Part shown: piece by piece, positions 5,507-7,700 of the stretch
How the letters are laid out: each line of letters begins with the position of its first letter
How positions within the stretch are numbered: the stretch's first letter is position 1
Virus record (IMG/VR): IMGVR_UViG_3300028384_001047
Location: 1-23,026 of that record
DNA from: a virus
DNA: 23,026 nucleotides
Reading direction: 5' to 3' (one strand)
The notes under the pieces: model-generated
Databases searched by the model: none
Seen by the model: the letters and a program-made list of their open reading frames with translations, nothing else
Told to the model about the DNA's origin: nothing
Translations under genes and position numbers: made by a program

Positions 5507-5875
5507 TTATCTTCCTCTCTTAGCTTTAGAAAGCTGTTCCTGCTCTTTTCTCTTTTGTGCGTAGTATTTTCCTAGTTCATCTTCGCACACTTTGAGTAGT
5601 TCAAAGACTTCACGTTGTTGATCAATACCATATATGTTCATAATATCGATTAACCCGCCGTAATCTTTACCGAGCCAGAGACCATTCATGCCTTCCCATT
5701 TATCTGGTAATGCATTAATCATAACTAAAGCTTGTTGAGCTTCTAAAGAAAAAGTTGAAGGATCTTTCGGTATATCTTCTTCTTTAGGTTCTACCCCCAT
5801 CTGTTCACATATAGTAAAATATTGTTCTACTGATATTCCACCACCGTGTAAACTAGTCTGAAGGTAGTCTTTTAG
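5507..5875 (-). CDS. Tail assembly chaperone, frameshift-encoded T part
   Basis: The -1 frame is open from the slippery site at 5875 to the stop at 5507 (122 codons before the stop). An ATG at 5800 (MGVEPKEED) would give only 97 residues, and no Shine-Dalgarno site is evident before it. The region between 5800 and the slippery site is fully open in this frame (CTA AAA GAC TAC CTT ...), which is what a G-T fusion needs. Joined to the upstream frame the product is 265 residues. By analogy with lambda gpG/gpGT, the short form coats the tape measure and the long form recruits tube subunits. The T part is rich in charged helix and ends in a Lys/Arg/Gln tail. It touches the tape measure start. Confidence 0.8.
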   Translation of the reverse strand, partial: LKDYLQTSLHGGGISVEQYFTICEQMGVEPKEEDIPKDPSTFSLEAQQALVMINALPDKWEGMNGLWLGKDYGGLIDIMNIYGIDQQREVFELLKVCEDELGKYYAQKRKEQEQLSKAKRGR

Positions 5876-6303
5876 TTTTTTGCGTCTGTCTCAGCTTTTT
5901 TCTTTGAGAATTGTTCAAAATCGTTCATAGTATCTGTGATAAACTGATCAAAGATAGTTGAATTTTTTAACAACTCAATCGCATCTTCATTACTATAATC
6001 GATATTTTCTTCACCGTCCATTCCTGAAATGTCAACAGGCATTAAAGCAGGCATGTGTTTAATTTTTAGACCTTTCCATCCAATAATAGCTTTTTCAGCA
6101 TAATTTTCAAGAAAGCGATCATTATCGACTTCTTCTTCACGCTGACGTGTACGCTTATTAAATTTGAATGTAAGTGAAGCATTGCGAATTTTCATTAAAT
6201 CTTCGCGGGTAAGATATTTAAGATTGATCTCAAAACCTTCAATATCTGGGAATTCTGCCCAGACAGAAGATTGTTCAGCAATCATATTTTTAATTTTACT
6301 CAT
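5872..6303 (-). CDS. Tail assembly chaperone G (zero frame)
   Basis: 143 residues, located between the tube protein and the tape measure, the standard place for the G chaperone of long-tailed phages. The sequence is charged and mostly helical, with a central KYLTREDLMKIRNA stretch and an acidic C-terminal half. Its last sense codons are GCA AAA AAC followed by TAA, giving an A AAA AAC slippery heptamer right before the stop. The start ATG follows GAGGGGAAACC, whose GAGG is a Shine-Dalgarno match 7 bases from the ATG. That ribosome-binding site is part of the inverted repeats of the leader at 6304-6416. Identity rests on position, length and the frameshift; I recognise no catalytic motif and none is expected. 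Confidence 0.85.
   Translation of the reverse strand: MSKIKNMIAEQSSVWAEFPDIEGFEINLKYLTREDLMKIRNASLTFKFNKRTRQREEEVDNDRFLENYAEKAIIGWKGLKIKHMPALMPVDISGMDGEENIDYSNEDAIELLKNSTIFDQFITDTMNDFEQFSKKKAETDAKN
5875..5881 (-). other. Programmed -1 ribosomal frameshift site A AAA AAC
   Basis: Read on the minus strand in zero frame the codons are GCA AAA AAC TAA, so the last A of GCA plus AAA AAC forms the canonical X XXY YYZ heptamer A AAA AAC. Slipping back one base continues as CTA AAA GAC and stays open into the downstream frame down to 5507. About 6 bases after the heptamer, ACTACC can pair with GGTGGT (one G-U) across a 17-base loop, a possible stimulatory hairpin. Tail chaperone frameshifting is conserved in long-tailed phages, which strengthens the call. 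Confidence 0.88.
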
Positions 6304-6416
6304 GGTTTCCCCTCATAGTGTAAGTGTCCATCACATATCTGCTCTTCGTAGGTGAGGGGGAACCTTGAATCGCAAGTGACGGACACTCTCTGGTTGTTAA
6401 ATAATGTTCCCCCTCA
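6304..6416 (-). promoter_or_regulatory. Structured leader RNA before tail chaperone
   Basis: The 125-base gap between tube protein and chaperone contains five related arms. In RNA order they are A (6416-6406, TGAGGGGGAAC), B (6387-6376, AGTGTCCGTCAC), A' (6364-6353, GGTTCCCCCTCA), B' (6334-6323, GTGATGGACACT) and A'' (6315-6304, TGAGGGGAAACC). A and A' pair perfectly over 11 bases. B and B' pair over 12 with one G-U. A' and A'' pair over 12 with one mismatch, and A'' holds the chaperone Shine-Dalgarno sequence and abuts its ATG. A-B-A'-B' is a pseudoknot order, and A:A' excludes A':A''. There is no U-tract, so it is not an ordinary terminator. Switching between the two folds is my inference from base pairing. 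Confidence 0.65.
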
Positions 6417-6428
6417 GAAACATTTTAA

Positions 6429-7700
6429 TTATGATTTTTTAGCAAAAACCGTTACTTCGCCACCATCACCACGTGAAGCTGTAGGCTCCTGACCAACAAA
6501 GTTCACGGTCATGGAGATAACATCGTCTGTAGCGACTTGTGGGAATTCAAACTGTGTAGCATCGAGCTGGAAGGCAACGTATGGTGCTGTTGTACCACCG
6601 ATGATCAAGTTTGCATTTGAAGTTTGTGCTGAAGATGTACGTGAATCTTCAGAAATGTTACGCAGGAATCCTGCTGATTCTAAATCACCTGTACGTAGGT
6701 ACATAGTCGCAGAACCTGTTACGGCGCGAGTACCCATAAACTGACCAATCGGCTCGTTCAAAGCTGAAATTTCTTCAGGTGTCAGGTAAGTAATGTTGTT
6801 ATTGTAATCAAAGCTCAGTGCTGTTACTGGGAAGACAAACTTCTCATCAGCTGCACCAGCAGAAGCTTTATGGTGGAACTCAATAGCACTCAGACGATTC
6901 TTGATGAATGAGTTTGTGCCGACTGTTCCAGCTACGTTCATTTGACCATATGGATGGTACGCGGCTTCTTCTGATTCTTCTGAAGCGTTTGAGTTAGCGG
7001 TTACTGTTGTACCGTTGTTAAGAACACCGCCGAATACTGAAACAGCATTGTCACGAGGTGTACCTGTAACTTCTTTCATTGTTGTACCAAAACCAGCCCA
7101 GGTAACTGTAGCAATTTCTTCAATACCTGCGTCAACAGTTGCCTGATTGACTGTAGCATTTGATACCTGATAAATAACGTTATCAAGCTTGAAGTAAATG
7201 TGATTTTCTGTACCAGTTGAGAAGTTTGAACGGGTAGAGTGTGAACCTGTACCAGCAGCTACATTTGTTGTTTGAAGCTTACCACCGTCTGCCCATATTG
7301 ACTGCTCATTAGCACCAGAAGCGACTTTCGTATTTGATACAAGTGACTGCCACATAAACCAGTCAGCTACAGGCTTAACGTTACCTGTTTGTGTAGTTCC
7401 TGCAGCAGAACCACCAGCGGTTGCACCAGTGTTTACATCAGTTGGACGTAAATATACCTGGAAATTCCAGTCAACTGGGTTAATAGCAGTATTAAAACGT
7501 TGCTGCGAACGGTCAGGGTTTGTACCTGATTCAAGTGAAGTAATGTCCTGAGTAGCGGCAGACGAAGTCACTGCAAAGCCAGCCAACACTTCTAATTTCC
7601 ATGTGTTAGAAGGTTTCATAGCTGTAACAGCCGCACCATTGATCAAGTCAATAGTAGACATGAACACTTCTGAATTTCTCTGTAGATTAAGAGATGCCAT
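6429..7700 (-). CDS. Major tail tube protein
   Basis: 423 residues with ATG at 7700 preceded by AAGGAG at good spacing. The sequence is Thr/Ser/Ala/Gly-rich, rich in predicted beta strand and has few charged blocks. It has features expected of a tube subunit: an N-terminal segment (MASLNLQRNSEVF, then INGAAVTAMKPSNTWKLEVL), repeated short strands, and a C-terminal half ending in VISMTVNFVGQEP. It is followed by the G/GT chaperone genes and the tape measure, the usual order for siphoviruses. It is longer than the roughly 200-residue lambda-type tube, so it may carry an extra surface domain. I see no clear Ig-like motif. A sheath gene would be expected here in a contractile phage and is absent. 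Confidence 0.8.
   Translation of the reverse strand: MASLNLQRNSEVFMSTIDLINGAAVTAMKPSNTWKLEVLAGFAVTSSAATQDITSLESGTNPDRSQQRFNTAINPVDWNFQVYLRPTDVNTGATAGGSAAGTTQTGNVKPVADWFMWQSLVSNTKVASGANEQSIWADGGKLQTTNVAAGTGSHSTRSNFSTGTENHIYFKLDNVIYQVSNATVNQATVDAGIEEIATVTWAGFGTTMKEVTGTPRDNAVSVFGGVLNNGTTVTANSNASEESEEAAYHPYGQMNVAGTVGTNSFIKNRLSAIEFHHKASAGAADEKFVFPVTALSFDYNNNITYLTPEEISALNEPIGQFMGTRAVTGSATMYLRTGDLESAGFLRNISEDSRTSSAQTSNANLIIGGTTAPYVAFQLDATQFEFPQVATDDVISMTVNFVGQEPTASRGDGGEVTVFAKKS

Follow-up and report, generated by a model that had tools for sequence, protein, structure and literature searches.

A conserved kissing-hairpin mRNA leader between the tube and tail chaperone genes of uncultured T5-like phages

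Between the major tail (tube) protein gene and the tail assembly chaperone gene of an uncultured phage and its relatives we identified a conserved structured RNA, in which two hairpins, P1 and hairpin 2, contact each other through their loops. From the comparison of its natural variants we propose that it may be a cis-acting mRNA leader tuning chaperone expression, with the kissing-hairpin fold setting translation of the chaperone apart from that of the tube protein, a reading to which we assign a probability of roughly 0.45. To build its tail a phage requires tube protein in much larger amounts than chaperone, and the element sits exactly between these two genes. Since its fold is strongly preserved and is in no RNA catalogue that we searched, it probably helps to set the amount of chaperone.

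The window, i.e. the whole stretch of DNA analysed, is a virus record of 23,026 bases with its head and tail genes on the minus strand. In PHROG and Pfam we obtained matches for terminase, portal, fused prohead protease/capsid and tail terminator and, on the tail side, for major tail protein, tail chaperone, chaperone extension and tape measure. The -1 frame of the chaperone gene is open to about 5507, over about 121 codons, and would yield a gpGT-like product, so that the gene has both the slippery heptamer near its end and the open -1 frame of a lambda-type G/GT pair. Among relatives, A AAA AAC UAA is found at all 62 complete chaperone ends and the -1 extension measures 112-123 codons wherever the contig permits. 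Programmed -1 frameshifting of tail chaperones has been described for lambda and many phages, and in lambda, where the tail shaft subunit is present in about 192 copies, a gpG:gpGT ratio of about 30:1 is crucial (PMC5009743). The downstream gene thus resembles lambda G/GT in having A AAA AAC ahead of the stop codon and an extension in the -1 frame, but the structured leader lies 5' of the start codon rather than at the frameshift site, and so outside the known device. Given the frameshift site at all 62 ends and the crucial ratio in lambda, control of chaperone dosage would be its likeliest role.

Table 1. Positions of the RNA element and of the neighbouring genes in the window.
Feature	Position	Strand	Support
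Major tail (tube) protein, upstream gene	6429..7700	minus	PHROG 3575, E 7.9e-47
Tube stop codon	6431-6429	minus	
P1 hairpin: 5' arm AAUGUUUC, loop UGAGGG, 3' arm GGAACAUU	6403..6424	minus	covariation
Arm A, Shine-Dalgarno-like loop sequence UGAGGGGG, kisses A'	6409..6416	minus	coevolution with A'
Arm B, 5' strand of hairpin-2 basal stem (13 bp)	6376..6388	minus	double-sided changes
UUGC, pairs with GCAG (6342-6339) above 4-nt bulge on 3' side	6372..6375	minus	near-invariance
Apical stem-loop AGG-UUCCCCCUCA-CCU presenting arm A'	6350..6365	minus	compensatory closing stem
Arm A' CCCCCUCA, kisses loop A, complementary to Shine-Dalgarno sequence	6353..6360	minus	CCCCUC invariant
Hairpin-2 GCAG strand and AUAU bulge	6335..6342	minus	GCA invariant 53/53
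Arm B', 3' strand of hairpin-2 basal stem	6322..6334	minus	covariation with B
Arm A'', chaperone Shine-Dalgarno region UGAGGGGAAACC (GAGG 6314-6311)	6304..6315	minus	
Tail assembly chaperone (gpG-like), downstream gene	5872..6303	minus	PHROG 313, E 3.8e-14
-1 frameshift site A AAA AAC, directly 5' of chaperone stop	5875..5881	minus	

A preliminary description of this DNA had named five complementary arms in the only long gap of the operon. We found all of them (A, B, A', B' and A'') at the places named, on the minus strand of the tube-chaperone gap, which at 125 nt is indeed the longest of the operon. A and A' form a perfect helix of 11 bp (6416-6406 with 6363-6353), B and B' one of 13 bp (6388-6376 with 6334-6322), and the 12-nt version of A' (6364-6353) can pair at 11 of 12 positions with A'' (6315-6304), which includes the GAGG of the chaperone Shine-Dalgarno sequence, as had been noted. 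The arms follow each other in the order A-B-A'-B'-A'', confirming that B and B' interleave with the A arms as in a pseudoknot. The fold of this RNA has a z-score of -3.3, none of 200 shuffled sequences being equally stable, and two helices of at least 11 bp arose in just 5 of 1000 dinucleotide shuffles. The preliminary description had overlooked P1, a hairpin of 8-9 bp that starts 4 nt 3' of the tube stop codon and surrounds arm A, and whose final bases (AAC) are common to P1 and the 11-bp A:A' helix. Hairpin 2 is made up of the 13-bp basal stem and an irregular upper stem with an asymmetric bulge.

A chaperone search of IMG/VR gave 174 relatives, of which 80 were kept, and the element was present in every one of these with a complete leader. 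Pattern and profile searches added more divergent members, with chaperone identity as low as about 50-60%, and again the element was found in every complete leader among the matches listed; here and above, ‘every’ refers to the matches listed in each search, and all relatives are metagenome contigs. In total we collected 83 distinct leaders, and the structure was counted on 70 distinct cores and on a more diverse set of 53 representatives. At the first-scanned loci, 162 of 165 pattern matches precede a relative of the chaperone and the other three leave the contig at or just past its start; the leaders beyond these loci were read directly. Covariance models, whose E-values are rough, placed one copy in each record, including contigs of 112.8, 80 and 74 kb, and their weak second matches were on the opposite strand at the same place. 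A loose pattern of the core also matched bacterial and archaeal genomes; those among the matches listed were unrelated genomes and were treated as chance.

Judged by these comparisons, the element belongs to a large lineage of uncultured T5-like phages. The nearest cultured phages in a protein search were distant (about 28-36% identity) and mostly Demerecviridae, i.e. T5-like, the Demerecviridae lying at about 28-33%, and a chaperone alignment that included cultured phages was too diverse to serve as search query. A nucleotide search of cultured phages gave no match, no isolate carrying it was found in the phage collection searched, and both the tube-chaperone gap and the RNA are absent from the four cultured Demerecviridae records examined (L170, L171, L172 and L173). 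Because these phages make a chaperone of the same kind without gap or element, the element is not required for tail assembly in general. In the four cultured records a gene for a minor tail protein separates tube from chaperone, at the place where the uncultured lineage has the RNA. Among the divergent members, one leader (L315:5216-5327) retains B:B', A and A' without a clear P1 hairpin, three (L338, L350 and L362) have GCAAA or GCAUA in place of GCAGA, and the A of UCA is absent from loop A' in four (L337, L338, L340 and L356).

The pairing of B with B' and of A with A' was borne out by compensatory changes in the relatives. For B:B', changes on both sides were seen in 10 of 13 pairs among the 70 cores and in 11 of 13 among the 53 representatives; 97-99% of cells remained paired (98.7% on the 70 cores), and the stem measured 13 bp in 70 of the 83 leaders. 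Double changes also occurred in the outer pairs of P1 (5/5 on the 70 cores and 4/5 on the 53 representatives; AU/GC, UA/AU and GC/AU), and a hairpin of at least 3 bp lies at this position in 69 of 70 leaders, L296 having just 3 bp with an 11-nt loop. Taking the structure as a whole, 95-98% of cells were paired, versus 43-53% when the partners were slid by 1-3 columns, and cells with double changes numbered 156-193, versus 46-50 in shuffles, a control that ignores the relatedness of the sequences. G-U pairs recur on the minus strand (e.g. in 12, 11 and 8 of 53) and exist on that strand only, indicating that it is the RNA sense. Furthermore, the apical stem closing loop A' changed in a compensatory manner from AU to GC and from GC to AU, and the UUGC of the UUGC/GCAG pairing is invariant in 70 of 70 leaders and nearly so in the diverse 53. 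Spacing is likewise constrained: across the 83 leaders the Shine-Dalgarno sequence lies 7-13 nt 3' of hairpin 2 and 5-11 nt 5' of the AUG. As far as comparative evidence goes, these patterns show that the two-hairpin mRNA fold of P1 and hairpin 2 is real and conserved.

Because the kissing helix itself shows almost no variation, its support comes from only two observations, the behaviour of its eighth pair and a swap test. Loop A reads UGAGGGG in all 70 leaders, giving seven pairs, the CCCCUC of A' is the same in 53 of 53 representatives, and overall loops A and A' (CCCCUCA) hardly vary. At the eighth pair the 70 leaders have GC in 51 cases, AU in 11 and GU in 6, and the changes are compensatory. 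When partners were exchanged among the 53 representatives, true A:A' pairs had a mean of -17.73 kcal/mol versus -16.46 kcal/mol for swapped ones, and 0 of 2000 swaps were as good, in a test that, like its counterpart for A'':A' below, ignores relatedness among the sequences. Lengthened beyond 8 bp, A:A' competes with P1; of the added pairs, 22-77 and 23-76 are disrupted in 14-15 of the 70 leaders. Since the 11-bp helix overlaps P1 and has broken pairs, P1 with a loop-loop contact of 7-8 bp is the better-conserved arrangement; a free-standing 11-bp A:A' stem was replaced by this model. On this evidence A and A' coevolve, and the kissing helix forms between UGAGGGGG in the loop of P1 and CCCCCUCA in that of hairpin 2.

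The preliminary description had gone further and proposed a translational switch, in which A' alternates between A and A'' and the pairing with A'' hides the Shine-Dalgarno sequence, toggling chaperone synthesis. The pseudoknotted RNA in front of the chaperone gene stood up, being conserved and covarying, but the switch through A'' did not, as A' showed no coevolution with A'': 1991 of 2000 swaps equalled or exceeded the true pairs in stability (true mean -13.15 versus -13.47 kcal/mol for swapped pairs, 53 representatives), so that an anti-Shine-Dalgarno strand coevolving with its target, as in a sequestering switch, was not found by the swap test. Nor is a competition between two stems of near-equal length supported: A:A' is the more stable in 63 of the 70 leaders and 44 of the 53 representatives. 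Both pairings would draw on the strand A': all 70 leaders allow it 7 bp or more with A, and in the window it pairs with A'' at 11 of 12 positions, but in L291, L292, L293 and L299, four leaders whose Shine-Dalgarno sequence is just GAGG, A'':A' shrinks to 4-5 bp and is weaker than -9 kcal/mol. The complementarity in the window speaks for a switch, as does the use of GAGGGG as Shine-Dalgarno sequence in 51 of 70 chaperone leaders compared with 0 of 160 other gene leaders on the same contigs. The starts of these 160 were taken to be the first ATG codon, and some may be wrong. The odd use of GAGGGG favours a link between the element and the Shine-Dalgarno sequence. If A were removed, A'':A' (mean -13.5 kcal/mol) would outcompete pairing of the Shine-Dalgarno sequence with 16S rRNA (mean -8.0), and accessibility of the site is middling in a nested-fold estimate that ignores the pseudoknot (mean 0.44; window 0.57). 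Any trigger of the switch would be hypothetical, and with A:A' the stronger helix in 44 of the 53 representatives, masking of the Shine-Dalgarno sequence by A' is not expected as the default. Masking by A' is therefore possible but unproven, the evolutionary signal lying on A:A' and not on A':A'', and we consider the switch unlikely.

The main rival to translational control lies in mRNA processing or stability; a conserved structure by itself would fit both alike. A stable tube mRNA would then have the hairpins as its 3' end, either through cleavage by RNase III or RNase E or because they block 3'-to-5' exonucleases, and an excess of tube protein over chaperone would result. Intergenic RNase III hairpins of T7 shape mRNA ends in just this way, arm A lies 7-38 nt 3' of the tube stop, and hairpin 2 is long and irregular with its asymmetric bulge. 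Pseudoknots are also able to block RNases (PMC9373788). Yet a simple stem would suffice for this purpose, and the invariant loops, the coevolving loop-loop helix and the narrow spacing of 7-13 nt to the Shine-Dalgarno sequence would be left unexplained, which makes processing a doubtful account of the element. It is highly improbable that hairpin 2 and a following U-tract act as a partial intrinsic terminator lowering transcription into the chaperone gene: at least four U in a row occur within 10 nt after B' in 43 of 83 leaders, but at least five in just 12 of 83 and none in the window, and the basal stem closes an irregular upper hairpin of about 40 nt rather than a compact terminator hairpin. 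An intrinsic terminator consisting of a GC hairpin with a direct U-run was dropped for lack of the U-run. The order A-B-A'-B' also resembles the nested pseudoknot of HDV-like self-cleaving ribozymes, and in our own comparison the strand order and a short CUUG/CAAG pairing after B could mimic P1-P2-P3. A ribozyme nevertheless seems extremely improbable, as no Rfam ribozyme family matched even at E up to 10, CUUG/CAAG showed no covariation and has one pair broken in 15 of 42, and A is enclosed in the covarying hairpin P1 instead; with both an Rfam covariance model match and a covarying P3 absent, the HDV-like candidate was rejected.

For the dosage leader that we favour, the following mechanism can be envisaged. 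P1 just after the tube stop and hairpin 2, whose end lies 7-13 nt 5' of the Shine-Dalgarno sequence, would be linked by the 7-8 bp of A:A' and make a compact fold that sets chaperone translation separate from, and below, that of the tube protein. In the default fold A' would be held by A, leaving the Shine-Dalgarno sequence free of A', and a protein, which might be the chaperone, the tube protein or ribosomal protein S1, could recognise the fold and repress or gate initiation in the manner of gp32. The invariant letters of loops and upper stem (UGAGGGG, CUUGC, CCCCUC and GCAGA) suggest protein recognition, and by analogy the leader perhaps acts as a protein-bound operator. Freed A' masking the Shine-Dalgarno sequence would be a possible off state, one without evolutionary support. 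A bolder and rather speculative proposal is a new class of phage translational operator, in which the kissing-loop leader senses tail-building material and sets the tube-to-chaperone ratio, broken kissing freeing A' to mask the Shine-Dalgarno sequence; candidates for the sensed material are the chaperone, the tube protein and ribosomes that are completing the tube gene. Melting of P1 by the terminating tube ribosome was considered and is not clearly supported, the distance from stop to A varying between 7 and 38 nt. In siphophages the tube/chaperone ratio is usually ascribed to start-site strength and frameshifting. On a practical note, the more than 80 natural variants offer ready-made compensatory changes.

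No family of Rfam release 15 reached its gathering threshold, either with the window or with the stretches retrieved from four divergent relatives. With the limit relaxed to E up to 10, the matches were no more than noise well short of threshold (microRNA-like, lncRNA and freshwater-1). The element is in no Rfam family and in no cultured phage examined, and nothing of the kind was described in a literature search of partial coverage. The closest phage parallel, drawn by analogy, is the gene 32 leader pseudoknot of T4, T2 and RB69, possibly the only viral pseudoknot in translation autoregulation at the date of the review (PMC3014915). Both are pseudoknotted phage mRNA leaders 5' of the ribosome-binding site of the target, but the gene 32 leader is small, being built of two stacked helices that lie 67 nt 5' of the start, and has an A+U-rich tract for cooperative binding, whereas here two hairpins kiss by an 8-bp GC-rich helix beside the Shine-Dalgarno sequence of a tail chaperone gene. 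The gene 32 leader is bound by gp32, while the protein partner of this element is putative; if a tail protein does bind it, this would be a rare viral pseudoknotted leader in translational control. The SAM-II riboswitch, which is known from marine DNA as well, likewise has a pseudoknot beside a GAGG Shine-Dalgarno sequence, which the ligand-stabilised pseudoknot hides (PMC9373788). By contrast, the conserved loop-loop helix here excludes the Shine-Dalgarno sequence, the element has no Rfam match and the gene concerned is a phage tail gene. Hairpins of the T7 RNase III type share with the element their irregular shape and position between phage genes, but have neither a conserved loop-loop helix nor invariant loops.

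Two further proteins of the window, both encoded on the minus strand, each combine different domains. An 876-aa frame (13933-11303) has a prohead serine protease domain (Pfam S78) together with a phage capsid domain and is apparently a fused protease and major capsid protein. A protein of 448 aa (10939-9593) joins head-completion-like parts to a laminin-G/concanavalin-like lectin domain, and is perhaps a decoration on the neck.
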